Shown: one piece after another, positions 1-18,644 of the stretch | How positions within the stretch are numbered: the first letter of the stretch is position 1 | Layout of the letters: each line of letters begins with the position of its first letter | Source of the DNA: Auxenochlorella pyrenoidosa | Taxonomy: Eukaryota > Chlorophyta > Trebouxiophyceae > Chlorellales > Chlorellaceae | DNA length: 18,644 nucleotides | Assembly (NCBI GenBank): GCA_001430745.1 | Contig: KQ482032.1 | Location: 1,616,411-1,635,054, forward strand | Reading direction: 5' to 3' | The notes under the pieces: model-generated | Database searches by the model: none | The model's input: the letters and a program-made list of their open reading frames with translations, nothing else | What the model was told of the DNA's origin: nothing | Program-made: the position numbers and the translations under genes

Positions 1-1970
1 GGCCTAACGCCGGCGCCCCGGGTGCCGACGCCTATGCCTCGTATACCGACGTGCCCAACAGCCAGATCCGCAAGGTCACGGCGCGGCGGCTGCAGGAGAG
101 CAAGCAGCAGATCCCGCACTACTACCTGACCATCTCGGCGCGCGTGGACGCGCTGCAGCGCTTCAGGTCGGGCCTGGCCGGGCCGGGGCTGGCCGGGCGG
201 GGGCGCCGCAGGGGCGGCCCGCGCCGCAGGAAGCAGCAACAAGGGCCTGATGCTTACCTGCGCAGTGTGCTGCGGACAGCAAGGCGCCTGTACGTGAGCC
301 GGGCCCTGCATACGTGAGCCGGGCCCTGGTCTGCCGCGCCTGCCACCCTAATTCCCTCTCGCTGCGCCTTCCCTCCCGCCCTGCAGGCAGCAGCTGAACG
401 ACACGCTGGCGGCCACCAGCGGCGGCAAGCTGTCACTCAACGACTTCATCATCAAGGTGGCCGCTCGCGGCGGCAGGATGTGCACCCGCAAGCCTCCCTC
501 TGCCCTTGCAGCTGCCCAGTGTGACAGCCGGATCGCGGCATCCGAGCACGCGGGATCAAGTCGCAGTCACCGATGTAGAGACGCAGCTGTTGTCAAGGCC
601 GTGCTGCACCCTGCTCAGGCATGCCGGCTGCGGCGCTTAAGGCACGCCTCCCTGGCCTGGCCTCCTCCCGCTGCAACCCCCTTGCCGCAGGCCTCTGCGC
701 TGGCGCTGCGCAAGGTGCCCGAGGTGAATGCCAGCTGGCACCCCGAGTTCATCCGCCAGTACCACAACGTGGACTGCAGCGTCGCGGTGCAGGTGGGGGG
801 TGGCTGGGTGTGTGTGTGTGTGGTGGAGGGTGTGTGTGGTTGGGGCGGTGGTGGTGGGTGGGTGGGTGGGGGCCGGGGGGGGCACGGCGATTGCGCCAGT
901 CGTGCATGGATATCTGGGCGCCTGCGCTTGTGCCCAGCATACCTGGCCTGCCTGCCAACGAGATTGGCCTGGCATGCTGGTGCGCACGAGCGCAGGCGCC
1001 CAGATATCCATGCACGACTGGCACGAGCGCCGCCACGAGCACCGCCACGACCGCCGCCAACCTCGTTGGCAGGCAGGCCGGAGCTGCATGCACCCTTGCA
1101 ACCGCCTGCGCTCCTCAAGCGCTGCCGGCACTGTGGCCCCTCCTTGCAGACCCCCGTTGGCCTGATGGTGCCCATCGTCAAGGATGCCGACAAGAAGGGC
1201 CTGGCCGCCATCGCCGCCGAGGTCAAGGAGCTGGCGGGCCGGGTGAGCTGAGCTGCTGGCCGCACAGGCAGAGGTGGCTGGGAAAGTGCGCACCGAGGGG
1301 TGCCTGCCCCGCAGCTATTGCCGGCATGGCTTGGGCTCCCGCAAGGGTTTTCTTCTGTCGGCTTTGAAGTGGGCTGCTTTGTGCCGGAGCCGGTGGGCCC
1401 TCATCTTGTGCAACACGCAGCCGCCCCCGCCCGCCTGCCCCCCCCACCCCCCACCCCACCCCACCCCACACACACACCCCATTCCCACCCAGGCCAAGGA
1501 GGGCAAGCTGCGGCCCGAGGAGTTCACGGGCGGCACCTTCACCATCTCCAACCTGGGCATGTACGGCATCAGCCAGTTCGCCGCCATCGTCAACCCGCCG
1601 CAGGTGCGCCCGCTGCGCCGCTGCTGTGCAAACATGCTCGGTTGCCTGGGGCTGGGGACCAGGCCATGCTTGAGGCTGCAGCGTTCTTGTCTGTGCAGGT
1701 GCGCGGGAACGGCCGTCTCTGGCACGCCTGCAAACGCCTGCTTGCCACCCCACTCCCCACGCTGCCCTCCCCCCCCCCCAGGCCTGCATCCTGGCGGTGG
1801 GCACCACTGAGCAGCGCGTGGTGCCCGGCGCCGGCGGCGGCTTTGAGGAGGCCACCTTCCTGAACTGCACGCTGAGCTGCGACCACCGCGTGGTGGACGG
1901 CGCGGTGGGGGCCCAGTGGTTGGCCGCCTTCAGGGCGTACCTGGAGGACCCCGCCACCATGCTGCTCTGA
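1..1970 (+). CDS. DLAT: Pyruvate dehydrogenase E2 (dihydrolipoamide acetyltransferase), mitochondrial type, 3' part
   Basis: E2 transfers the acetyl group from lipoyl-lysine to CoA and forms the core of the pyruvate dehydrogenase complex. Exons: <1-166, 387-456, 691-792, 1150-1242, 1493-1603, 1782-1970 (stop TGA). Joined they give about 242 residues in one frame, with phases 2,0,0,0,0. This is the end of the linker plus the whole acetyltransferase domain; lipoyl and E1/E3-binding domains must lie upstream of the window. Diagnostic motifs: [10 protein letters not shown] and IPHYYLT at the domain start, [27 protein letters not shown]-like [12 protein letters not shown], and the catalytic [10 protein letters not shown] (H and D of HxxxDG) followed by a C-terminus ending MLL. 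The [17 protein letters not shown] join and the MLL end match mitochondrial plant and animal E2 better than plastid E2 (known family pattern). Mitochondrial location is inferred, since the targeting peptide is not in view. Confidence 0.93.
291..328 (+). repeat. Short tandem duplication in E2 intron 1
   Basis: The 18-mer TACGTGAGCCGGGCCCTG occurs at 291-308 and again at 311-328, a 20-nt period, inside the intron 167-386. It contains a GTGAG donor-like sequence in both copies, but no reading frame through it extends the E2 protein. Confidence 0.8.
793..885 (+). repeat. GT/G-rich low-complexity tract at start of E2 intron 3
   Basis: From the donor onward the intron is almost only G and T: TG dinucleotide runs near 808-838, then GGT/GGGT runs and a run of eight G near 873-882. 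It is low-complexity intron sequence that can form G-quadruplexes on the transcribed RNA; no gene is supported. Confidence 0.7.
890..1080. repeat. Long foldback (inverted repeat) inside intron 3 of the E2 gene
   Basis: Positions 896-928 are the exact reverse complement of 989-1021 (33 nt). Pairing continues inward with a few mismatches and one bulge to about 948/966, leaving a loop of roughly 17 nt. A second perfect inverted pair overlaps it: 945-962 is the reverse complement of 1062-1079 (18 nt). The element sits wholly within the 357-nt intron 793-1149. It could be a foldback/MITE-like insertion or a hairpin RNA precursor. Confidence 0.85.
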
Positions 1971-2682: not shown

Positions 2683-5600
2683 TCAGTCTGCGGGGAACAG
2701 CTGCCGCCGCAGCTCCTTCTTGTTCACCTTGCCCATGGCATTGCGTGGGATGGAGGGCACCACCACCAGCTCCGCGGGCAGCTGGTAGGCCGGCAGGCTG
2801 GCCGAGGCAAAGGCGCGCAGCTCGTGGAGGGTGGGGGCGCTGCCGTCACGGGGGGCTACCACCGCAGCGATGCGCTGCAGGAGAGGGGTGTGGTGGCCCC
2901 GGGTGAGTGCTCGTGCCGCCCCAGGGAAGGCTGGGTTAGGGTGGCCCAGCCTCTGCGGCGTCACGCAGGCCCACGCTGCTGCCGACCGCCCGGGCCTGGC
3001 CCCAGCTGCGTGGCAGCGTCGCACCAGTGCGGCACAAGCATGCGGCTGCCTCTCTGCGCCCGCCAGCCGCCCACACGCCGTCTCTGACAACACAAACTTG
3101 AGGGGCACATTCCTGGAAGTGCTCACCCCCAGCTGCCGGCCCGCGCCTGAACCTTTCAAAGGCGTGGCGATGCGGGCCTGCCCACCCACCTCTCCGTACA
3201 CCTCGTCTGGCAGGCCCAGCACCGCCACCTCAGCCAGCAGAGGGTGCTCCAGCAGGGCGCTTTCCACGTGCAGCGCCGAGATCTGGCACAGCAGGGCGGG
3301 TGTGGGAGCGTGGTGGGGGAGGAGCAGGCGGCGCACGGGCGGGCCGGTCAGTCGGGAAAGGCAGCAGTGGGGGGCTGCGGGCGTCGGCTGGCAGGCGGCT
3401 CGTGAAGCACGCGGCTGGGCACTCCCCCTCCCACGCAGTCGCTTGCTGAGCTCGCCTTGTAGCCGCCATGCTTAATGATGTCCACCGAGGTGCGGCCCAG
3501 CAGCTTGTAGTAGCCACCCTGGACGACGCCGGTGTCGCCTGCAGGGGCGGGCGCGCGTCAGCGGGTCAAACGAGGGCGGCCGTGCATGGGCGGGGGCTAG
3601 TCGATCAAACCCTGAAAAACCTGATCCAAAACAAGCACACCCCCCCCCCCCCCTGTTGCCCACCCGTGAGGAAGTAGCCCTCCTCGTCAAAGGCCTCGGC
3701 CGTCGCCTCGGGCCGCTTCCAGTACTCCTTGAACAACTGCGGGCTTTGCACCCGCAGCTCGCCGGGACCTGCGGCAGCCAGGCGCTTCCAGGCAGGCTGC
3801 TGAGCCGCGTTGCCTGCTGCACGGAACAGCAGCATGCAAGGCCAGGCAAGATGCAGCAGTGGTTGCTGCTCAGTCCCGCTTGTACGTGCCCTTGACCGAC
3901 AAAGCGCAGGGCCATCCCCAGCCGCGCCCGCCCTGCCCTTCGCCTGTCAGAGCACGCCCCCAGGGACGTCCCCAGGCACGCGCCTGCGCCGGCGTCGCTG
4001 CCATCGGCGTTGGCCAGCCGCACGCGCACCCCGCGGAAGGGCTGCCCCACCGTCTCGGGGCGGCGCTCCCCGGCGTAGGGGTTGCCCAGCAGCATGCCCG
4101 TCTCAGTCATGCCATACCGCTCAAGCAGCCTGCTGCCTGCAAGCAAGGGGCAAGGGGGTGGGTGCGGGGTTAAAGGGACAGGGAAGGAGTGGGCCAGCTG
4201 CTGCTTGGCGCCTCACCCCGGCTGCCGCTGCTGCCTGGAGGGCAAGCAGACGAGGCAAGCCGCGGCCAGCTAGCAAGCTGTGATCATGGGCGGCGCGGCA
4301 GGCGGCATTTTTGCATAGAGTTAAGAGGGAGGCTGCTCGGGTTTATGATCAGCCCGGTGCTCACGCACAGCCCGCTGGGTGCGCTGCCGCTTGCCTGACA
4401 GCTCCTCCCAGCGCTGCATGATGGGGCCCGGGCAGGCTGCGCTGCCGCTCACCGTCAACCGCAGCTGCGGGTGGGAAGGGGGCTTGCGGGCGGGTGACGA
4501 CACACCACAGCAGGGAGCCACGTGTGCAGCTGCTATGCCCAGCAGGCACCCATTTTCTCAGGGCCCAGGGCTCCCACAAAAGGCTGCCGCCAGCTCTGCA
4601 CCCACGGAGTGCTGCCTGAGACACCAGCCCCGCCACCGCCCTCAGCCTCAGCCTCAGCCTGCGCCCACCCTGCGCGCCGCGGCCGCTGCCGCCGCCTGCT
4701 GCTGGGGGTCCATGTGTCGGTCCCGCCAGGTCAGCAGGTGGGAGTACATGGTGGGAACGCCCATGAAGACAGTGACCGGGTCCTCCGCCCGCTGCGGGCC
4801 AGGGCAGCATGCAGGGTGGCAATTTGCGGCAATGCTTTGCCGCTTCGGTAGCGACTCGGCAGCTCGACCATGCATTCTAGTTTCTGCCGAGGTGGCTGGC
4901 TGGCTGGTTGGCTGGCTGGCTGGCTGGCCGCTCACACCTGCAGGTGCTGCCACACGTCCCGGGGCGAGAACTTGGGCAGCATCTCCACACAGGCACCTGC
5001 AAGGGGGAGAAAGGTGTCGGTGTGGCGCCGGGCTGCTGCAGTGGTGCCGTTGAGACAGCTGCCATGTGCTGATAGCACAGTGAAGCACCCAGCTGAGCAG
5101 TCTCACTTTCTGCCTTTTAACTAGCTATCCATGTGTCCGCTTGCATACGACATCAGGACCAGCCACTGCCGGCGGCCCACTCAGCCCACCTATGCTCAGC
5201 GGGCACAGAAGCGCGTTGACGATGCCATGCACGTGGTGCAGCGGCAGGCAGTGCAGGATGCGGTCGGCCGCTTCCCAGGCCCATGCCTCGCACAGGGTGT
5301 CCACCTGGGCTGCCAAGCTCGCATGTGTGTGCAGAGCGCCTGCAGGCAGGGCAGCAGCAGGCAGGGGCTGATGAGGGGCTGGCAGCGCACCAGGGCCTGC
5401 CTTGAGAGCGCCTGAATGGCGATGCCTGGAGAGGGGAATGGCGACGGAGGGAGAAGGAAGGAATGCAGACCAGGGTTTAGCACATGGCGGAGCGCAGGTG
5501 GGGTGAGGGGCCGCACCCTTGGGCCTCCCGGTGGTGCCGCTGGTGTAGATGATGAGGGCGCCCTCGCCGCCGCCGCGCCCCTCCAGCCGGCGCCCCACCT

Positions 5601-6683
5601 CCCGCTGCAGCTCCGCAGCCTGCTCCCCCTCGTCCGCCTGCGCAGCCTGCGCCTCCGCCTGCCCCGCCCCCTGCTGCGGGTGCGTCTCCACGACGTGGAC
5701 CTCGGCGCCAAAGGGCTGCAGGCCAGGGGGTGTAACAGCGGGTGTCGGGGCCACGAGACAAGGCTCCTGGCAAGGCCACCTGCCGCACAGAATGCTGGCA
5801 TTGCTGGCAGGACCTGCTCAAGCCGCGTGACTCCACGCGGCGCAGCAAGCCATACCAGGCGGGCAGATGGCCCGCCAGCATGGCCGGGCAGGCAGATGGC
5901 CGGCCAGCCAGCGCGGCCGGGCGGGCGGCAGCGCTGCGCACCCGCGCCAGCGCCTCGAGCCGCTCGGCGTGCTGCTCGGAGGCCAGCAGGGACGACACCT
6001 CAGCATCCTCCAGCACGTACTGCAGCTCCCTGCAGCGGCCAGGCAGCCAGGAGGATGCGTGTGGCCCCGCTGGCGTCCTGCAGCACATGCTGCAGCTCCC
6101 TCCGCGCCGGCAGGGCGCGGCAGAGCCAGCCGGCTGGCCCCACATAGGCTGCAGCCTGAGGTCATTGGCGGCACGGGGGCCAGCCATGTTGGGGACCAGC
6201 CCCATGCACGCCCACCTGTCGGGGTGGCTGAGGCAGAGCGGCACTGTGATGCCGCCGTGCATCCAGGTGCCGAACGCCCCCGCCACGTAGGCTGGCCCAG
6301 GGTCGGCCATCAGGGCGACGCGTGGCCCAGCATCCGGCGCCGAAGTGCCGCCGACGCCGCTGCCGGGCTGCGCAGCTCGTCCGCTTTCAAGCTTCCGGCA
6401 GGTCGCCACAGCCGCAGACAGCACGTCTGCATACCTGCGCAAAAAGGCATGATGGCAGACGTATGCAAAAATTTAAGGTGGAAGCGGCAGCGGCCACGGC
6501 AGCTCAGGGGTGCCGCCAAGGCTGGGCTGCGCTGCAACAAGCCGCATCACTGGAAACCCTTGTCAGCAGCGCGCCATGCAATATGTTGCCAGCACGGATC
6601 ATGCGCTCTCACCTGTAGCTGCGGCCTCCGGCGACGAGTGCTGAGCGGGGCAGGAAGCCGAGCGAGGACCGCAGGACTTCCAT
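2683..6683 (-). CDS. AAE13: Malonyl-CoA synthetase (malonate-CoA ligase, AAE13/ACSF3 family), complete
   Basis: Adenylate-forming enzyme: malonate + CoA + ATP gives malonyl-CoA + AMP + PPi, clearing malonate and supplying malonyl-CoA. Exons in transcript order: 6683-6613, 6434-6216, 6029-5942, 5715-5517, 5339-5190, 4996-4938, 4791-4669, 4464-4395, 4136-3984, 3768-3664, 3538-3456, 3282-3190, 2874-2683. They total 1605 nt (534 residues), near the usual length for plant AAE13. Motifs: P-loop [11 protein letters not shown] (about 183-193), [29 protein letters not shown] (332-340), TGDTG (412-416), [14 protein letters not shown] (427-440), and [13 protein letters not shown] with catalytic Lys about 520. 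The [12 protein letters not shown] and ERYGMTE blocks are typical of the malonate ligases. The ATG at 6683 is chosen because upstream in-frame sequence reaches a stop before any other ATG and the MEVL start matches plant AAE13. No transit peptide or PTS1 is evident, so a cytosolic form is inferred. Three introns appear to have GC donors. Confidence 0.9.
3283..3455 (-). other. GC-AG intron 11 of the malonyl-CoA synthetase gene
   Basis: The exon ends TACAAG and the intron begins GCGAGC. The join gives [13 protein letters not shown], an invariant core motif of the family. The nearest in-frame GT donor would add seven residues inside that motif, which is unlikely. Confidence 0.65.
3640..3653 (+). 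repeat. Run of 14 C (G on the transcribed strand) near donor of intron 10
   Basis: The homopolymer lies about 10 nt inside the minus-strand intron that starts at 3663, so the pre-mRNA carries a G14 run beside the 5' splice site. G-runs near donors often act as intronic splicing enhancers (known in other eukaryotes); the role here is inference. Confidence 0.7.
3769..3983 (-). other. Probable GC-AG intron 9 of the malonyl-CoA synthetase gene
   Basis: Exon 10 must be entered in phase 1 to read [16 protein letters not shown]. All nearby GT dinucleotides after exon 9 are in phase 2 and would break the frame. CAG followed by GCGCGT fits phase 1 and gives a compact surface loop. This is the least certain of the GC donors because the +3 to +6 bases are poor. 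Confidence 0.45.
4137..4394 (-). other. GC-AG intron 8 of the malonyl-CoA synthetase gene
   Basis: On the minus strand exon 8 ends TCAG and the intron starts GCAAGC, the standard GC-donor form. Joining here gives [16 protein letters not shown], the same spacing as plant and human family members. A GTGAGC donor 27 nt further in would also keep frame but would insert nine residues (KRQRTQRAV plus a changed codon) next to a conserved motif. Confidence 0.6.
4893..4930 (+). repeat. GGCT microsatellite in intron 6 of malonyl-CoA synthetase
   Basis: About nine tandem GGCT/GGTT units fill this part of the intron between exons 6 and 7. It is a simple repeat with no coding role. Confidence 0.8.
6001..6101 (-). 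repeat. Tandem partial duplication of an exon head (exon 3 of malonyl-CoA synthetase)
   Basis: The first part of exon 3 (minus strand from 6029, encoding [10 protein letters not shown]) has a diverged copy 70 nt upstream in intron 2 (from 6099, encoding [10 protein letters not shown]). About 25 of 31 positions match. The 70-nt offset is not a multiple of three, so both copies cannot be read together in frame. The upstream copy also lacks a CAG acceptor (it is preceded by GGAG). Confidence 0.75.
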
Positions 6684-7660: not shown

Positions 7661-8875
7661 ATGGCCCGCACCTGGCTGCTGCTCGCGGCAGTCGCCGCAG
7701 TGCTCGCCAGCGCAGCTGCCGCCAAGTCCCGCTTCTCCGCTTGCAAGTGGAGCGACACATACAGATACTACAGGATTGTTGGCAGGTCTGGGCGAGGCCA
7801 GCGATTCGTAGAGAAGGTCAAGGTGAGCGCACAATTTTGGTCCATGCCCCTGCGTGCAGCACCAAACGTTGCCAAGGGCAGCGGAACACTCTGGCATCCT
7901 GGCTCCATTCCCTGCACTTTGCTGTCATATTTTTCGAAAGCTTGTGCTTGCAACACTGTCTGATCGCAACTTACGACACAAGCTGCACAGACACACCTTG
8001 GCCCCCCTAACACTTGTACCCTTTGCAGGGTGACTTCATCAACGATGCCTTTGTGCAGGTGGGCATGTCATGATGTATGCGCTCCCGTGGGGTTGGCTCT
8101 GCCCACGCCAGCCGCACCTGTTCCACGCCCACCAACGCCATTGCCGCCCCGCTTCACACAAACGTTCTCCTCTCCGCGCCATCAATGCACACATCCACGC
8201 GCAGGCGGTGAAGTACACCACGGCCCGCCTGCGCATGCGCCGCTACCTCGCCTCGGGGTGCCGCTTCGCCCGCGCCCTGCGCCACCAGGGTTGCTACAAT
8301 GTGCGGTTGTGGGTGCTCTGATGGGAGGCATGGTTGTGGGCGGGTGGATGGGAGGGCAGACAAACTCCTGGGGCGCTGCTGACTTTCCCTGTGCCGCCAT
8401 GGTGTGTGAAACGATCTCGCTCCACCTGCTTGCAGAGCTACATCCCTGGGGGCAAGGGCATGCAGTACAAAGGTCGCTACGGTGAGTGCAGCTGCTGTGC
8501 AGTGGAGTCAGCATGCACACACGTGAGCCTGCCTCCCTGCCTGCCTGGCCCCTGAGATCTGAAACTGATGTGCCCTTGAGTGCTGTGCAGGCTTCCGTTA
8601 CAGCGTGGCCTATGCCTGCCCGGTGAGTGGTGTTGTTCGTTTGCGGCTCAAGATGCTCTGCAGGAGCTGGCAAATCGAGCAGCAGCATGGTGGCCACTCT
8701 GTAGGCACAATACGGAGGCCTGCCACAAGGTGCTTCTGCCAGTGCTACCTCTTTGGCCGTCCTGCCTGCAGGGCAAGATCCGGGCCTTCTCTTGCAGTAT
8801 CAGGCTGTACACCAACAGGAACAACCGGCTGTCACACCCTTCCTTCTGGGCACCTGCCATGCTCAGCTGCGGCGG
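7661..8875 (+). other. Signal peptide and six-cysteine N-terminal domain of the first paralog (exons 1-6)
   Basis: The domain contains CKWSDTY, SGCRFARALRHQGCY, GKGMQYKGRYG, YACP, SCSIRLYT and LSCGG. The even number of cysteines in a secreted protein suggests three disulfides. It is basic (many Arg/Lys, for example RLRMRRYL). I considered pherophorin-type and lectin domains and could not match it to either. Confidence 0.7.
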
Positions 8876-11800
8876 GTGAGCTGCTCCCCGCAACGGTCCA
8901 GCCTCAAGAGCTGCAGAGTGGTCTCCAGAATGAAGATCCCAGGCCCTTCTGGCAGCCTGTTCCTCTGATGGCGCCAGCAAGGCTTGCTATGCTTGCTGCA
9001 CAGACAATGCATGCCCTGATGCCCACCGTGGTGTTCGCAGACATGCAAGCCTGCTGTGTCCGCTGCCTGCAGGGGAGGTGGCCCATCGCCGTGAGCACCG
9101 CAAGCGGGGCTTGCGTGTTGGCCGTCGAACTGGCACTTGCATAGCAAAACCAAGGAGCGATTGATTTGCGTTGCAGCTTGCAACGTGGCTGGGGACTTTT
9201 CTGCAGGGGGGTTCATGCCATACTTGTCCGCCTGGGCATGTGCCTGCCCTCCGCCTGCAGGTATAAGGGCAGGCCTGGCAGGCCACGCATCCGTGATATC
9301 ACCGGAGACGCCGCCTCTCAGGTGGGCTGCGTGGTGCTCAACTAACCCGCCGAGTGTCACCAGCACCAGACGTTTTATATGACAAGCACAGTCCAGCTAC
9401 CTTGCACGGTGCTGCCTGCCACTCGCTCGCGGCTATGTCACATGCTGCGGGCGCCCCGCTGCAGGTCAACATCATTGCCAACCCTCCGCGCTACACTGGA
9501 GGCTTCCGTGAGCTCCAAGCTTGACTGAACTGCATCCAGCTTGCCAACACTCCTGCACAACAGTACTGTAGCCTGCTGTGTTGCAACACCTGCATACGCC
9601 AGCTGGTTCTAGCTAGGTACCTCGCTGGTATTAACTGGCAGGGACCTGAGCTAGGATCTGTGCTGCCTGGATCCCCGCCTGTGCAGCCATCCTGTCATAT
9701 CGGGTCACGGCCACCCCCAGGGGCGGCGGCGGCACCATTATCATCGAGGGCGTTGGGTTTGTGGTCATTGGTAGCAACCAGGTGCGCAGCGGCATAGCGA
9801 CTGCCCATCAGGCCCCGCACATGCATGCCTTGAAGCTTTGGGAATGGGCCGCCAACCTGCACCAGCCCTCCTGCCTCTCTCCCACTCTTGCTGGCGTCCA
9901 TACCAGGGGGGCTTCCTGCATTGCTGCATTCCATAACATGTCCACATTTTCACACGGAGGTGCTCACATGCTATTGGGTTGCTTGGTGCCCCATCCCTGC
10001 TGCTGCAGATCCAGCTGTCGCTGCCTGCGACGCGCTTTGATTTGAACAACATTCAGTTCCTCTGGACCATCACCGCCAGGAACCAGAATGGCTATGGCCT
10101 CCGCAGCAGGGCCTACCGCTGGCCGGGCAGGTGAGGGCAGGGCCAGAGTGCTGCGGCCTGGGAGCAGTGAGCCAGCGCTGGGCTGCTGAGCTGTGGTCAC
10201 AGTCCTGAATTGATGGTCTTGAGCGTGGTGCTACAGCACCCAGCCGGGGATGCAACCTGCTTGCATGCGTATGCTCAGACAGGCCGTGCTGGCCATCCAA
10301 CATCTCAGGCTGACCCCCATAGGCTTGCGCACCTCGGTTCCAGAGTCATGTGCCTGCAATGTGCCGAGACACCAATATCCCTCTGCCTGTGCTGCAGGGA
10401 CCTGCCGTCAGCCCCCACCATCACCAACATCCAGTCCCTGCTCACGGGGGGTGTGCCAGGCAACATCCAGATCACAGCAGTGCCACCCTCTGACACTGGC
10501 GGCTCGGGTGCGAGCCCAGCACCGCGCAGGCGGAGCGGGTCTGGGTGCGAGCTGGGGAGCAGCCCCTGGCGGCCAGCCTATCCGCGCTGCTCCGCGACGC
10601 CCACCCACCTGCGCTGTCCTCTCCACACGCCTGCCTGCCTGCAGGCATCCGCAGCTACTCGGTGTGGGCAGACCCGGTGGGCAGCGGGCGCACCATCTAC
10701 CAGAGCGGGCTCACGTACACGACAGTCGGCAGCGAGGCAAGAGCGGGGGCGGCAGCTTGTGGATGGAGGCGGGCAGCAGGGGGGCGGGCTTGTTCAGCAC
10801 CTCCCACTGCATGGCGCCATGCCTCATGAGACACCTGCTGCGCGGAGCGAAGCCGCTTTGTCCCACATGGCAGCATGAGCAAGCACCTGGAGCGGCTCGC
10901 CTCCCAACATCAAGCCCCACCCAGCTGCTCCTGCTCCTGCCTGCCGACAGTGGGTCCAGAGCCCCTCCCTTCCCCCTGCAGATCTCCGTGCTGGTCTCCC
11001 AGGCAGTGTTCAACATCAGCGGGGAGCGCGCCGAGTGGACCCTGGCGGCGCAGAACGCCGTGGGGCTGGGCCGCGAGAGCGACCCCTACCTCTGGCCCAC
11101 CACGTGAGCCCTCGCTAGCGCTGCTGCAGGCGCTCTCAGCCCAGTCTTCCCCCTGCCCTCGCTTGCCATACTGCCTGGCCAAACCTTTGCCAGGGTCGGG
11201 ATGGCATGTCTCTGAGGGCAGGCGAAGCTCATGCAAGCTCGATGCACAACCAAGAACGCCTGCCAGTCTGCCAGCAAGGAGGCCACACGGTTGTTGGGTC
11301 AGCCATGTGACTACAGCATGCCTTCCCCCACCCGGCTGCGCTGCAGAGGACTGGCCTCTGCCCCACGCATCTGGTACATTCGCTACGCAGCCACCGGCTC
11401 ACCCCTGCAGGTGGCCATCCTCGTCTATCCCCCCTCCGATGACGGTGGCTCTGGTGAGCGCAGGCAGGCAGGCCTGGCTGCTAGCAGGCAGCCACTTCCC
11501 TGGGAGGCGCCCAAAGCAATCCCATGGCGAATCCCTCCCTTGTCTTTGCAGCATGCCGACCACCATTGCGCTGCCCACGCTTTGCGTGTTGCTCGACTGC
11601 CCTTTGCCTGGCTGGCAGCTGGCGCTGGCCCGCTGCACAGACTGCCACAGCCTGGCTGACGGCCTTTGCCTCCCGCCTTGCTCCCCTGTCCACCGGAATG
11701 CCAGCCATTGAGCACTACAGCGTGTACGCCACGCCCGTCTGGGGCGGCAGTCCCATTGTGATCGACTACGTGGCGCCCATTTCCGAGGGGGACAAGGTGG

Positions 11801-13255
11801 GCGGCGCGGGGGTACAGCGCAGCATGCGCAACAGAGGCAGTCGCTCAGAGCGCTGCTTGCTTGGCATAGGGCAGGACAGAGTGCTGTCTGTACTGCTGAG
11901 TCAGGAGCAGCTGAAGTTCACGCGCTGTTCGTCGGTGGTCGCTTCTCTGCCGCCCTCTCGCCATCCAGTTTGCCTCCTACCTGTGATGCACCTGCAGGTC
12001 AAGCTGCTGGTGGATGCCAGCCTGTTCGACCTGCAGAACATGCAGGTGGGGATTGCTGCCACGGCAGCTCTTCTTGTTGCTGCATATCTGCCTCTGGTAG
12101 CTGGCTGTCCACTGGCAGTCCTGCAGGCTGCGGGCATGTGCCTGCCACTGAGCATACTGCAAGCCCGGCAGCCCCTGATGTGCTGCTGTGCTCAGGCAGC
12201 CTTATTTCTGCCACTCGGGCCTGTTTGTGTCCTGCAGTACTTGTGGGAGGTGGCGGCTGACAACGCTGCCGGGCTTGGCCCCTACTCCGGAGACTATACC
12301 TGGCCCCGCACGTGAGCTGCCACGTGTGCTGGGGCCGGCGATTTCGCACACCCGGGATGCACAGCGAGTGCCTTGCACACAGCTGGCGGGGCTGCATGGG
12401 ACCGCGCAAATTGTGCCAGCGCTCCCACCTGCCCGTGAGTCCAAAGCCAGGGTCGTCTGGCACCAATGCCTGCGCTCCCCTCTCGCCGCCTCCTTGCATC
12501 TGCCCCTTCACTCGCAGGGACACCCCCGACATGCCCGACATCACACGCATCTTCCGCGACATATCAGACCCCAGCTTCATCTACCTCAACGTCACCCAGC
12601 CAGACTGGTACACCGTGCTTCCGGGTCGGTGCCCGCCGGCTGTGCTCATTGCCTGGAGGCCCCGGCTCGGCCTGCCTACCTGGCAGCCAGAGCAAGCGAC
12701 CGCAGCCCTCGCCTGCCTGGCTGTGGGTCTGCTGAACGTGATGCCGCCACCCCGCTGGGGTCCTGCATGCCTTTGTCCATGCCACTGCTACTTCTGTTTC
12801 CTTACCCCAGTCAACTGCCCCCGCCCCGGCCCCCGCCACCCCCGCCACCCACCCTCGAGTGCAGACATCACCGCCTTTGACGTGCTGGTCCGCTCCAACC
12901 CCGCCTCCCCCAACCCACTGTGGTCGACGGAGGTCATCGCGCCAGACTTCACAGTGACTGGCAGCGCCTGGCCGGCCGCACAGGTGGGGGCAGCGCCCTG
13001 GGCAGCAGTCGGGCGCAAGGGCGCCGGCAGGCCCGGTGCCGAGCACGCACAGGGCCCGGCCCCTTTGCCTGGGATTCTGAGCAGCCGTTACATGCCGGCT
13101 CCTTGACTGGCCGCCTGGCTGGCCCGCCCTGGCAGGTGCTCATCCACGTCAGCCCCCCCGCCGTGTACCTGGCCGGCAGCCCCTACTCCTGGACCGTGCG
13201 CTCTAAGACCAGCCAGGACACCAGCCCCGAGAGCCAGCCGCTTCAGTACCCTTGA
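7661..13255 (+). CDS. Secreted six-cysteine-domain protein with four FN3-like repeats (complete; family not recognised)
   Basis: Twenty exons: 7661-7822, 8029-8058, 8205-8300, 8436-8481, 8591-8622, 8772-8875, 9261-9321, 9465-9507, 9687-9781, 10009-10130, 10398-10507, 10645-10736, 10982-11103, 11347-11453, 11705-11796, 11998-12045, 12238-12311, 12518-12624, 12865-12983, 13136-13255. The sum is 1782 nt, 593 residues, with consistent phases throughout. Residues 1-21 form a signal peptide (hydrophobic LLLAAVAAVLA then Ala-rich). Residues about 24-157 are a domain I cannot name, with cysteines at 28, 83, 94, 121, 130 and 155. Four FN3-like repeats follow (about 158-264, 265-372, 373-479, 480-593). 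There is no transmembrane segment or obvious GPI signal at the C-terminus, so a secreted or wall-associated protein is inferred. Sequons NIS and NVT are present. The start at 7661 is chosen for the signal peptide and GGCATGGC context. The partner protein and function are unknown. It is a tandem paralog of the gene at 14854. Confidence 0.8.
9261..10130 (+). other. FN3-like repeat 1 of the first paralog (exons 7-10)
   Basis: Strand-like blocks: PRIRDITGD, NPPRYTGGFPILSYRVTATP, IQLSLPA, FLWTITARNQNGYGL, ending YRWPG. The P-P-x-x-x-GG-x-I-x-x-Y core and the W-x-I-x-A-x-N-x-x-G block are the FN3 signature. The first exon of the cassette is split into 61 + 43 nt here. Confidence 0.7.
10398..11103 (+). 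other. FN3-like repeat 2 of the first paralog (exons 11-13)
   Basis: Blocks: APTITNIQ, AVPPSDTGGSGIRSYSVWADP, ISVLVSQ, EWTLAAQNAVGLGRES, ending LWPTT. Exon lengths are 110, 92 and 122 nt with phases 2-1-0-2. This is the clearest FN3 match of the set. Confidence 0.75.
10737..10981 (+). other. GC-AG intron after exon 12 of the first paralog
   Basis: Exon 12 ends GGC AGC GAG and the intron starts GCAAGA; the acceptor is CCCTGCAG. The equivalent introns in the other repeats (after 9781, 11796, 12983 and 16815) all start with GT in the same phase 0. This looks like a GT to GC donor change at a homologous site. Confidence 0.65.
11347..12311 (+). other. FN3-like repeat 3 of the first paralog (exons 14-17)
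   Basis: Blocks: SAPRIWYI, YPPSDDGGS, IEHYSVYATP, VKLLVDAS, YLWEVAADNAAGLGPYS, ending TWPRT. Exons are 107, 92, 48 and 74 nt; the last two sum to 122, the length of the undivided exon elsewhere. The acceptor before 11705 has a weak pyrimidine tract and is the least secure splice site here. Confidence 0.7.
12518..13255 (+). other. FN3-like repeat 4 of the first paralog (exons 18-20, C-terminal)
   Basis: Blocks: MPDITRIF, NVTQPDWYTVLPDITAFDVLVRS, FTVTGSAWPAAQ, VLIHVSPP, YSWTVRSKTSQDTSPES, ending LQYP-stop. It is the most diverged repeat. The P-P-x-D-x-GG turn is replaced, and the middle exon is longer (119 nt against 92-101). An N-glycosylation sequon NVT lies near the repeat start. Confidence 0.6.
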
Positions 13256-14853
13256 TAGCGGTGCGCGGCTGATGTGCATTGGTGGTGGGTTGGTGGGGTG
13301 GGTTGCCTCGCGGCGGGGGGGACGGGGGGACGGGGGGCGGGGGGGGGGCGGCGGCGGGGGACGGGGGTATTCTTGGACGTGTGCCAGGTTCCCGTGGGTT
13401 CAGATAGAGGTACCGGGGACAACAGGCAGGTGCCAAAAGCAGGGGTCGGAAAGGCACCCAGCAAGCGCAGTGCACAGCAGACTCCACAAGGCTGCATAGC
13501 CAGGAGGCAACCTGCCAGCAGGCACCTGTTGCTTTCATGCAAGGGTTGGGCAGCGCAGCCTAGGCTGGCAGCCGCAGCGCTTCAACTTGCCACCGCAGGA
13601 TTGTACAGCAAAGGATGCCAGCTAACACCGGCCTGCAAGCAGTGCTGATCAACCAGCACAGCGGACAGCGGTGTCATCAGCGGATTGAATACAGCAGCAT
13701 GCCAGACCAAGCACTGACGGTTAAGCCAGCGCTCTCTGCTCTTCTGCTGCAGGTGGCTGGGTCTGCCAACGACCGCATGACATGCAGACATGCAGCATGT
13801 ACATGCGATCAGGCCGGCGAGAGGGACCAAGGGAGAGCTGCTCTCCTTGCCTGAGCACCCCTTTGCCGCAGCACCCTCGAAGCCCTGCCTGCCTGGTGCC
13901 GCGGGGCGCCGTGCATCCCCTCCAACCCTGCTCCATCCCATCCTTGAACTCAACGCCCACCCTATCCCCTTTGAACTGGAACTCACGCATGCCATGCCCT
14001 AATTCAGTGGCCCTTCACCCGATTCCTCCCGTCGCACCACCTCCCCATGCGCTTGGTCCATCCCTCTACGCTTGCATTGCCCCCCTCCGGCATGTCTGTT
14101 CCACGCCCTCCTCAGACCGGACCTGCTGTACAGGCATCTATCCCTCGTGTTAGCATCTTACCTTAGGGACCAGACTGTCGTCTGGAGATCACAACCGCTG
14201 GGCCAGCTTGAGCAGGGCGTCAACGAGTGGTGCTGCAGTATCCACGCGGCTGCGCTGCGCTGGCAGCGGTGGGAGTGAGCCTTGTGCGGTTTGGCGGACA
14301 GTGCTTGCAGTCCGCGGCTGCCCTCTTTCGCCTGTACAACGGAAATGTTATGAGCACCAAAGTGGGGCTGCACTGCAGCTAGAATCAGCATGCACGGCAG
14401 TGTGGCTGCGGGTGCATTTTGAATCGCGGTGCCGCGCCGCCGCCCACCAGCACAGCCGCGAGTTCACCCTTCCCCCGCCTTCGCGCAAGCTCCGCCTGCT
14501 TGGGAGCAGGCTGATATAGGGAATGCGGCCGGGCGTGAGCTGGCGGGGCCCGGGTTGCTGATGATGGCCCTGAGCTGCCTCTCACCCACAAAGCCCCAAC
14601 GCTTTCCCATCGCTTGCTTCCAATTTCCGGCATCTACTCTGCAAAATCTACGATATAGCAAGCGGGCACGACAGGCACGAGCCCGCAGGGCGTCGACCAC
14701 TGGAGGACCACGCACCTTTCTCGCTGCTGTTGAATATCCTTTCCGAGCAATCCCGAGAGCGCTCTCACACTCCTGGGAGCTTCTGGGTCGCCGCACGAAG
14801 CCGGCGACAGCAGCTGTAGCCCTCTACCCTCTCGCACCACCGCTCCCGCCGCC
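13256..14853. other. Intergenic region between the two paralogs
   Basis: This 1.6-kb stretch should hold the 3' UTR of the first paralog and the promoter of the second. Apart from the G-rich tract it shows no conserved protein, RNA gene or mobile element. Two TATA-like strings, CTGATATAGG at 14511-14520 and CGATATAGC at 14651-14659, lie about 340 and 200 nt before the ATG at 14854; either is only a weak candidate. Confidence 0.55.
13281..13368 (+). repeat. G-rich tract downstream of the first paralog's stop (G-quadruplex candidate)
   Basis: It starts about 26 nt after the stop codon. The core 13311-13367 has at least six runs of five or more G separated by one to four bases. It should lie in the 3' UTR, where it could fold as RNA or DNA G-quadruplex. 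Confidence 0.75.
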
Positions 14854-16143
14854 ATGACAACAGAACGCTTTGTACTTCTAGCGGCGCTGGCCTCCCTGCT
14901 CGCGACTGCGGCGGCGCTGCAGGCGTGCACCTGGTCTGACACCTATCCCAAATGTGAGTGTACACTATGCGTTCTGAGCAGGTGTCGTGCTCTCTCGTAC
15001 AGACGCCACCCAGAAGGAGTGCCGCCACCTGCTGCGGCTATTTAAATTCACCTGCATTCTGCAAGCTTCGCCTGCAGACCAGATCATTCCCGCCAGCCGG
15101 CCTGGAGGCCAGAGCAAGTTCAAAGAGGTGGTCAGGGTGAGGGCAGCCTGGCGGCGCGGCCCCCACATAGCATGCCTGCCGCGCATGCTGCGGCTGCTTG
15201 GCTGCGCGGTCGTCCACGCCGGGACCTCCCCCCTGCTCCTCCGATCGCCAACGCGCCCGCTCCAGCGCCTGGCATGCAGGGCAACTTTGTGAATTTTGCG
15301 TACAAGCAGGCGGTGTCGCTGACCACCTTGCGCCTGCGCCGGGGCGGCTACATCTCAGACAGCTGCCGAGTGCTGTCCACCGTCAAGGAGCGCGGCTGCT
15401 ACGACAGCCGGGTCCCGGGCCACAAGGGGCGCCAGCTGTACGGGCGCTACGGTGAGGGGCACGGGGGTGGGAAGATACCCACCTGCCTGCCTGCCTGCCC
15501 GCTGGGCCAGGCTGGCTGCTCAACTTCTCCCATCCCGCCCCTGCCCGCCCCTGCCCTGCGCCCACCCCCAAACGTCACCCCTCCACAACCCACCTCACAC
15601 CCGCAGCCCTGCAGAACTGCCTCTGCACTGTAATGGCGCGCTGACCTGCACTGCCTGGCCTCCTCCTCTGCAGGCTTTCACTTCTCCGTGCTCTACTCCT
15701 GTCCGGTACGCCACTGCTGGCACTTTGCTGGCGCTGGGTGCCCCTGCCCTGGCCCGCCAGACAGGCTACTGTCAGCATCTATTGGACCATTTTTTGGCAA
15801 ATGCTGGCCCGGGGGCTTGCACACATCATCTGCCAGGGGCGAAGGCATTGATTCCGGGCGCCTCAGGGATTTGCCCACCCCGGCCCGTTGCACCATGCCC
15901 CTCTCCCCATGTGCAGACCAGCGCGCCAGTTTTTGACTGCAGCGTGCGCCTGTATACAACGCGCTACAACAGGCCATGGTGGGTGCGGGGGCGGTGCCTG
16001 TGGCCCGGGTCTTAGACACGCTTGCCTGGTGCTGTGTTGGCCTGCTGCCCTGCACCCTCGTTCCACTCACCCCGCTGGCCCTTTTTCTGGCGGACCGGTT
16101 GCAGGCACAAGAGCTTCTGGCGCTCACCCCTGGTGGACTGCAG
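14854..16143 (+). other. Signal peptide and six-cysteine N-terminal domain of the second paralog (exons 1-6)
   Basis: Cysteine gaps from the second to the sixth are 11, 27, 9 and 25 residues, identical to the first paralog; the first gap is 57 against 55. Exon 3 (172 nt) corresponds exactly to exons 2+3+4 (30+96+46) of the first paralog, and exon 4 (32 nt) to its exon 5. Confidence 0.72.
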
Positions 16144-18644
16144 GTGTGGGGCAGCCGCATGGGATTGGGCTCGCATCCGCAGAGACGCAACTCGCGCCGC
16201 TGTGCAATGCTCCGCTGCGCTGTGCTGCTGTGCTGCACCCACCCAGGCCAGCTGCGCCTGCCGTCCCGCCTTCCCTGTGCAGCGGCGCGGCCAGCAGCGG
16301 CGGCAACAGCGGCCGCAGCAACATCATCCCCAAGACCACGTGAGCTTGCAATGTGCTCTGGGCTCTGCACTCATCCAATGCCTGGCGGTCAGCTTGCACA
16401 GGATTGCAAGGCTTGCCAGGCTTGCCTACACAGCGTTCCCTTGCTCGCCCTCTTCCCTTGTGTTCCAGGCCCACCGTGCCCACCATCACCAGCATTGGCT
16501 GGTCTGGCAGCATGCCGACCCCTTACGTCACCCTCACCGCCATCCGGCCTGCCAGCGGAGGCTGTAAGCTGGCAGCGCGCTTTACCTCGGTCTGCAGACC
16601 TTGCCGTGCAGTTTTTTGTGCCATTCGCCTTCTCCTATGCACCCCTTCCCTTGCATAGCTGCGGACCTGGGCTGCATACAACTCGGCCCAGCCTCCCGGT
16701 CCTCGCTCTTGCAGCCATCCTGAGCTACACGCTGACAGCTGTCCCGGCGCGCTGCTGCGGCTACGCCACCGTCACTGTGCCTGGCCTGGCCTACAGCAGG
16801 AGCGGTGGGGGCAAGGTGCGTTGGTTCCCTCATAGTGTAATGGGCAGCGGCCTCTGCGCTCCAGTGCTGTCAATTGCATGCCTCGCCGTCGGCCCACCTC
16901 TGGCCCTGCCTCGCCAGCGCGTCCACTGTGCGGCCCTGGGCCCGACCCGCGCCTGCAGATCCGGGTCAGCGTGCCCGCCGGCTACTTCACCCTGGGGGCC
17001 ACCAGGTACTGGTTTGCGCTGCAGGCCCGCAACAGCCTGGGGCTCGGGCCCAAGAGCGCCCCCTTCTTGTGGCCCACCGGGTGAGCACCCAGCCCCCCAG
17101 CAGCCGGGTGGGCCGCCCTGGCTGCACTCTGGACCGCCTGGCCGGGCAGATGTGGGGTTGATGATGGGCAGGCGGAGCAGGGCGCGGGCAAGGCATGCAA
17201 GAGGCTCGCTTGACATTTTGCCTTCACTCTCTGCCCGCAGGCCACCCGCCGGCCCCACCATCACGGGCATCACATCCTCGCTGCTGCCAACGGGGCAGGT
17301 GCAGGTACTCATTGAGGCGGCGCTGCCGACCTTCTATGCAGGCAGGTGGCAGCTGGCAGGGCAAGGGGGGATGGTGTGTCAGTGCATGCCTGGGGCCCGC
17401 TGGCACCATGCGATTGCGCTCTGCCTTCAGAGGGACATGGCAGCGGCAGCCGTGCGTTGTAGGCGGGACATGCCAGCACACGCGTGTGCAGGCGGACACG
17501 CCGCTGCGGTTGGCCCTGCCCCCGCCTGCAGGCATCTCTGGATACGTCGTGAAGGCAGTGCCCAGGCAGGGCTCGCAGTACGCCACAGTCACCCGTTCCC
17601 CTGATGGCATCCCGTTCAAGGACTCGACACGGGTCTGTTAGCAGGGGCAGGCAGGTCGGAGGGGCACCCCCTCCGACATCAACACATGTGTTGCAGGCTG
17701 GCCCGTGCTTGCTGCATGCATGCGCGCTGAGCGCAGCCTGGCCTTGCTGCCCCAGCAGCATGGGCCACGGGACCCATCACGCCCATGGCCCATCATCTCA
17801 GACGGCGTGCACCTGTGGGAAAGCCCATGCACCGCTCCTGCACATGTGGGAAAGCCCATGCACACCTCCTGGGTGTGCCTGCAGGTCACCCTGATGGTGC
17901 TGGGGCGATGGTACGACCTGGCCAACCTGCAGTACGACTGGACAGTCATGTTCCGGACAAATCTGACAAACAGCGAGGCGAGCAACGCTTGGCTCTTCCC
18001 CGAACAGTGAGCCGCACGCTACTGCGCGTGAGGGCATGGGCGTCCAATACCCTGGAGCCGCAGGAAGTTGGCTTTGCAGCCTGAAAGGTGCATTACTACC
18101 CGTGCGCCCTTCACTGATGTGGCCTCAGCCAGAAGAGCAACCCCCTGCTGGTGCGCTGGCCCGCTGCAGGGGCAGGCCAGCCGCGCCCTCCATCCAGTAT
18201 GTCGCTGAGCAGTATTCCAAGGAGTGGGTGGTGGCGCTGCGCCCGCCTGCTTGGCGCGGCGGCAGCGGCATCTGTGAGTTGTCAGGCAGCTCTGGTACTC
18301 CTGCGGCAGGGCAGCTGGTGCTGTGCGTGTGCCGGGCACGCAGGCCTTGCTGAGCTGGCGCACCACCTGACTGCTGCCAGCAACACACGTCATCAGATGT
18401 AATTGTCTTGCCGCATCGGTGTATGGTTGCCGCCCTGGGCCCTGCCACCCCTTGCGGCTCGACCACAGCCCGCTGCTGCGCACCCGCCGGTGCAGCCGCC
18501 GCCACACGCTGTTCCCCCCTCCCTGCCCCCCGCCCTGGTGCCCCGCAGACATCTACAAGTACCTGGTGCTCGTCACCCGCGTGTGGGACAGGTTTCAGTA
18601 CGGAGCCATCAGCGTGCGGCCCAAGTTCCCAACCTGGCCGACCG
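14854..18644 (+). CDS. Secreted six-cysteine-domain/FN3-like protein, tandem paralog (3' end beyond the window)
   Basis: Fifteen exons visible: 14854-14953, 15078-15136, 15280-15451, 15674-15705, 15917-15978, 16105-16143, 16283-16339, 16469-16563, 16715-16815, 16959-17080, 17241-17341, 17532-17632, 17885-18006, 18170-18273, 18549->18644. That gives about 454 residues and remains open at the window end. The ATG is in a strong context (GCCGCCATG). Residues 1-21 are a signal peptide (FVLLAALASLLATAAA). Cysteines 25, 82, 93, 120, 129 and 154 match those of the first paralog. A Ser/Gly-rich linker (about 155-173) precedes the FN3-like repeats (about 174-280, 281-388, 389 onward). Shared motifs include C-x-WSDTY, RGCY, YGRYGF, SCP, CSVRLYT and SFW. 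Function is unknown; an extracellular structural or binding role is inferred from the architecture. Confidence 0.78.
16283..16339 (+). other. Ser/Gly-rich linker exon unique to the second paralog
   Basis: The exon encodes SGAASSGGNSGRSNIIPKT in phase 2-2, so it can be added or skipped without changing frame. It lies exactly between the six-cysteine domain and the first FN3-like repeat; the first paralog has no counterpart. Confidence 0.55.
16469..17080 (+). other. FN3-like repeat 1 of the second paralog (exons 8-10)
   Basis: Blocks: PTVPTITSIG, RPASGGSILSYTLTAVP, IRVSVPAG, YWFALQARNSLGLGPKS, ending LWPTG. Exons are 95, 101 and 122 nt with phases 2-1-0-2. An adjacent Cys-Cys pair (ARCCGY) sits in the middle exon, unusual for FN3. 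Confidence 0.72.
17342..17531 (+). other. GC-AG intron after exon 11 of the second paralog
   Basis: The next exon (GCATCTCTGGATAC) must be entered in phase 1 to read ISGYVVKAVP. The only nearby GT (17346) would enter in phase 2 and break the frame. TATGCAG followed by GCAGGT fits phase 1, matching all other introns at this cassette position. Confidence 0.65.
17809..17870 (+). repeat. Two-copy 31-nt tandem repeat in an intron of the second paralog
   Basis: Two near-identical units share TGTGGGAAAGCCCATGCAC and begin at 17809 and 17840, within the intron 17633-17884, just before its acceptor. They do not code for part of the protein. Confidence 0.8.
18170..18644 (+). other. FN3-like repeat 3 of the second paralog (exons 14-15, truncated by window end)
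   Basis: Blocks: AAPSIQYVAE, ALRPPAWRGGSGI, YIYKYLVLVTR. Exon 14 is 104 nt, phases 2-1; exon 15 is entered in phase 1 and is open to the window end. The first two parts of the cassette are present; the 122-nt exon is expected just outside. Confidence 0.6.

Follow-up and report, generated by a model that had tools for sequence, protein, structure and literature searches.

The stretch analysed here, the window, is 18,644 nucleotides long (C43:1616411-1635054) and comes from a 51.6 Mb assembly of the green alga Auxenochlorella pyrenoidosa, which is also the assembly covered by our genome searches. It carries two adjacent genes on the forward strand, A and B. Their proteins almost certainly have the architecture that we model, namely a head domain, a linker and a series of FN3-like units, and sequence comparison places the head, very probably, in the family of MAPS, a protein found in the culture medium of Chlorella sp. 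HS2. The features of the two genes, in window positions, are as follows.

7661..13255, forward: gene A, 599 amino acids in 21 exons; MAPS-like head with a signal-like N-terminus, Gly-rich linker and four FN3-like units.
7661..7723, forward: signal-peptide-like N-terminus of A, residues 1-21; the 12-residue hydropathy maximum is 2.65 at residue 6 (called from hydropathy and homology to MAPS).
7661..8875, forward: head of A, exons 1-6, MAPS-like with six cysteines (alignment A8); a phase 2 intron closes it.
9073..9090, forward: microexon of A, 18 nt, phase 2-2, part of the Gly-rich linker; required for identity to protein P0001.
9261..10130, forward: FN3 unit 1 of A, exons 8-11, phases 2-0-1-0 with one extra intron (predicted strands, FN3 matches).
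10398..11103, forward: FN3 unit 2 of A, exons 12-14, phases 2-1-0 (predicted strands, FN3 matches).
11347..12311, forward: FN3 unit 3 of A, exons 15-18, phases 2-1-0-0 with one extra intron (predicted strands, FN3 matches).
12518..13255, forward: FN3-like unit 4 of A, exons 19-21, phases 2-1-0 (exon phases, repeat alignment; low-confidence structure, see below).
14854..18644, forward: gene B, whose 3' end lies past the window; MAPS-like head, linker and three FN3-like units, 498 amino acids in protein P0023.
14854..16143, forward: head of B, exons 1-6, signal-like N-terminus and six cysteines (alignment A8, exon phases).
16283..16339, forward: linker exon of B, 57 nt, phase 2-2 (exon phases).
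16469..17080, forward: FN3-like unit 1 of B, exons 8-10, phases 2-1-0 (exon phases and repeat alignment).
17241..18006, forward: FN3-like unit 2 of B, exons 11-13, phases 2-1-0 (exon phases and repeat alignment).
18170..18644, forward: FN3-like unit 3 of B, first two exons, phases 2-1; continues beyond the window.

Many short exons in GC-rich DNA could in principle have been joined by chance, and our first model of gene A did lack an exon. That 20-exon model was dropped when P0001, 99% identical to it, proved to have six extra residues, which are encoded by the 18-nt microexon. The spliced translation of the 21-exon model equals P0001 at 599 of 599 residues. P0001, found in the homologue search, is 599 amino acids long and comes from seven contigs, the longest of 2,388 bases; gene A covers 5.6 kb, and P0001 therefore derives from spliced RNA. 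Gene B has 15 exons inside the window, and its residues 1-450 are identical to P0023 (three contigs, the longest of 2,402 bases). Such identity to intron-free public proteins refutes chance joining, to which we give practically no credence. The initial annotation, made from the sequence alone, had proposed two adjacent same-strand genes for signal-bearing proteins with a common head and FN3-like units; this description stands.

The final four residues of the gene B model disagree with P0023, and the related protein P0024 of Micractinium tetrahymenae agrees with the transcript. A one-base difference near the window end would explain the mismatch. Relative to P0023, a one-base frame difference lies at about 18626-18643, beside a short C run; it may reflect an indel in the assembly or allelic variation. 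Each gene also has one GC-AG intron, at window positions 10737 and 17342, both backed by transcript-derived proteins.

The fold of the rod was predicted for A only. The model of P0001 has a mean predicted local distance difference test score (pLDDT) of 65.8 and contains three FN3 sandwiches in residues 164-485; unit 4, with a pLDDT of about 30, has no confidently predicted fold. Structural matches of the rod are the FN3 arrays of titin, contactin and NCAM. By sequence, PF00041 gives 17.1 bits for P0002 (introduced below), 20.8 for P0023 (residues 451-491, E 4.6e-4) and 23.2 for P0024, and no match for P0001, so that none of the four reaches the gathering score of 25 bits. We file the units as FN3-like because they are assigned by fold, their PF00041 scores being below the cut-off. 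When gene A was searched against the PDB by sequence, titin and an FN3 protein accounted for the three matches, all of them weak (E 0.05-0.38). Five further matches to gene A, among the matches listed, all carry PF00041; the best has an E-value of 5e-16 over 55% of A, and the two that are named are bacterial and archaeal. One other FN3-like protein, of a different type, was seen in this genome, on the reverse strand (L001 1273-1950; G000 C59:2001893-2002111), with a PF00041 score of 25.4 bits, just above the cut-off.

The exon phases are regular. All four units of A and the first two of B begin at a phase 2 intron, followed by a phase 1 and then a phase 0 intron, with one extra phase 0 intron in A unit 1 and another in A unit 3; the first two introns of the triplet are visible for B unit 3. 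In A and B alike, the linker has a phase 2-2 exon of its own. Given this layout, linker and FN3 units form exon cassettes that can be separated from one another, and the units have probably spread by copying within the gene. In predicted fold and repeat layout A and B thus resemble the arrays of titin, contactin, NCAM and the bacterial and archaeal proteins; they differ from PF00041 arrays in scoring below the Pfam cut-off and in having as their unit a phase 2-1-0 exon triplet of class 2-2. Shuffled FN3 domains of animals are mostly of class 1-1. FN3 arrays typically serve as spacers and adhesion modules, and a spacer or retention module is, on balance, what we take the rod to be.

What the head is becomes clearer from MAPS. 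MAPS, reported in 2025, has a mass of ~17 kDa, is the dominant protein in the medium of Chlorella sp. HS2 and is described as lacking a known domain or function (PMC12213679). The same paper gives an Edman N-terminus of GPYKINPGXY, processing after residue 19, a deposited full sequence (XRO64249.1) and a similarity search that returned only hypothetical green algal proteins, Micractinium among them (PMC12213679). MAPS was compared here through its Edman N-terminus, signal residues and primer-encoded C-terminus. P0025 agrees with it at 8 of 10 Edman residues (X read as C, as in PMC12213679) and 15 of 19 signal residues, and the MAPS reverse primer, as printed there, encodes RVECA-stop, the end of P0025 alone among 27 proteins (PMC12213679). 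The RVECA-stop ending links P0025 to MAPS directly, and A and B by way of P0025. Other matches to the mature N-terminus are 7/10 for P0026 and P0012, 6/10 for P0011 and P0013, and 4/10 for P0010; the heads of A and B have the signal-like stretch and lack the GPY start. The MAPS product is given as 417 bp (PMC12213679), against 471 bases for the P0025 frame, so that the two may differ in length; the MAPS gene may be shorter, or a digit may have been transposed.

Profile searches with the head reach E-values as low as 4e-39. In alignment A8, whose rows include close orthologue pairs, five of the six cysteines are invariant in all 11 rows, the first being missing in one row, and 30 columns are invariant. 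The searches found eight standalone relatives: ABPG75_010775, ABPG75_009416 and ABPG75_009417 of M. tetrahymenae, and P0009, P0010, P0011, P0025 and P0026, whose contigs, no longer than 1,133 bases, are probably transcripts. Among the relatives found, the MAPS domain is therefore commoner alone (eight proteins) than fused (A, B and two orthologues).

The initial annotation could match the N-terminal domain to no family. That holds for Pfam and NCBIfam, in neither of which the head has a significant match (for NCBIfam, none at E 1 for six proteins), but relatives do exist, in the MAPS family. Two Pfam hits, DUF3613 in B (E 0.19) and Phage_OMP across the P0011 signal peptide (E 1.5), were set aside as chance-like. 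The head profile found a single PDB sequence match, a precorrin methylase at E 2.1. A viral or prokaryotic origin of the head was rejected, with no confirmed relative among 33 pattern matches in viral_contigs or 67 in genome_contigs (short patterns, which miss distant relatives; near records were possibly left out of both sets), and a viral fold library gave no match at E 0.001. No well-described family with the same architecture emerged from the profile searches, and no publication describing a head-FN3 protein of this kind from the literature searches, judged by titles and abstract openings.

Both genes have orthologues in M. tetrahymenae (Chlorellaceae): P0002 (ABPG75_006125) is 83% identical to A over 476 aligned residues, and P0024 (ABPG75_006123) is 79% identical to B over 496. 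Each of the two tags lies on a contig 4,329,782 bases long, presumably a shared one. Since A and B are only 36% identical to each other, their duplication is most likely older than the split of the two species. The idea of a family expanding by tandem duplication thus survives as an old tandem pair, and recent expansion is rejected on these identities. P0002 ends within FN3 unit 3; our guess is that ABPG75_006124 holds the rest of its rod. Within the sequences searched, the named sources of FN3-fused MAPS-like proteins are Chlorellaceae only, in keeping with the lineage-specific family first suggested.

The window's own genome also has standalone copies. The one at C63:227 kb corresponds to P0009 at 117 of 118 residues, and a divergent pair lies at C6:870017-877359 (870 and 876 kb), with matches ~5.4 kb apart, resembling the adjacent ABPG75_009416/009417. 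Both loci are readable through most of the MAPS-like domain, one gene of the C6 pair being interrupted by unreadable sequence. At C57:920 kb a signal-peptide-like match is a candidate only. Our first C63 splice model, two residues short, placed the donor six bases early and was rejected in favour of the donor given by P0009; alignment A2 and the tree use the shorter version. Fused and standalone genes have two intron sites in common, and in a tree of 13 heads the four fused ones fall on one side of a branch with support 100/99, in a tree of which seven of ten inner branches and the root are open and which carries a long-branch warning. These relationships would fit a single fusion event and a later duplication of the fused gene.

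Structure prediction somewhat favours a cystatin-like fold for the head, with one helix on a curved antiparallel sheet and two conserved hairpins. The predicted topology resembles that of cystatins (PF00031, phytocystatins included), and so does the placing of conserved residues in the two hairpins. Cystatins have QxVxG in the first hairpin and PW in the second; the head instead has QxxG and SFW, both invariant in 11 of 11 rows of A8. The strand preceding the second hairpin carries a cysteine and another follows that hairpin, a likeness to type-2 cystatins in the order of the cysteines. Cystatin membership by sequence was rejected: PF00031 gave no match for four heads and six proteins at E 10 (filters drop most matches above 0.1), and hhalign of the head against seven cystatins gave a probability of 0.0.

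Secretion of A and B is very likely, because they have a signal-like N-terminus and no membrane anchor (neither has a strongly hydrophobic stretch besides the N-terminal one) and MAPS is found in the medium. MAPS and the two heads, of one family through P0025, have conserved cysteines and the signal-like N-terminus in common; MAPS stands alone, and A and B add the linker and four or three FN3-like units. We propose that a MAPS domain came to head a protein that continues with a Gly-rich linker and, as its rod, three or four FN3 domains. The hairpin edge of the head would bind a protein partner, and the rod would hold the head in or near the cell wall, whereas free MAPS enters the medium. A papain-type cysteine protease is the first candidate partner, a guess based on the predicted fold and the 25 PF00112 exon matches in this genome. 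A wall-retained binding or inhibitor protein is our leading guess, in place of the general adhesion, wall or recognition role first suggested, which keeps a share of the probability. The full reading, an old tandem pair of MAPS-family proteins with cystatin-like head, FN3 rod and such a role, we hold tentatively, at near-even chances; protease inhibition by the head is in itself unlikely.

Nearly as likely as binding or inhibition is a purely structural or adhesive role, in which head and rod would bind wall polysaccharide or other cells and the cystatin-like shape would be merely a common arrangement. This serious possibility fits the usual use of FN3 arrays, the basic character of the proteins (calculated isoelectric points: A, 9.5; B, 9.9) and the moderate evidence for the head fold; against it, none of ten proteins examined, A and B included, has an RGD motif, and the standalone relative MAPS is soluble and abundant in the medium (PMC12213679). 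Recognition proteins tied to life inside ciliates are quite improbable. The only two named orthologues do come from M. tetrahymenae, a symbiont of Tetrahymena utriculariae (PMC12516953), but Chlorella sp. HS2 makes MAPS when grown in the laboratory (PMC12213679), and the main text of the symbiosis paper, searched by term, has no mention of fibronectin, cell wall, cell surface, secreted or extracellular (PMC12516953).

Upstream of gene A, forward-strand exons of a 2-oxoacid dehydrogenase acyltransferase catalytic domain (window 352-1970; PF00198, 64.8 and 68.4 bits) seem to be the 3' part of a gene that starts before the window. The reverse strand carries exons of an acyl-CoA synthetase-like (AMP-binding) gene (window ~3475-5817), with PF00501 at 57.9 bits over 5128-5817 and, below the cut-off, 22.5 bits over 3475-4212.

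MAPS had neither a known function nor a known domain; FN3-tailed family members and a possible cystatin-like fold make its function testable, and wall-retained versions of it would be worth looking at. It is improbable that MAPS proteins are unrecognised cystatin-fold secreted inhibitors of Chlorellaceae, soluble as MAPS and held in the wall by FN3 as A and B, in a two-tier system. The locus itself documents, for an alga, FN3 units that are set out along the gene in a defined triplet of exons.
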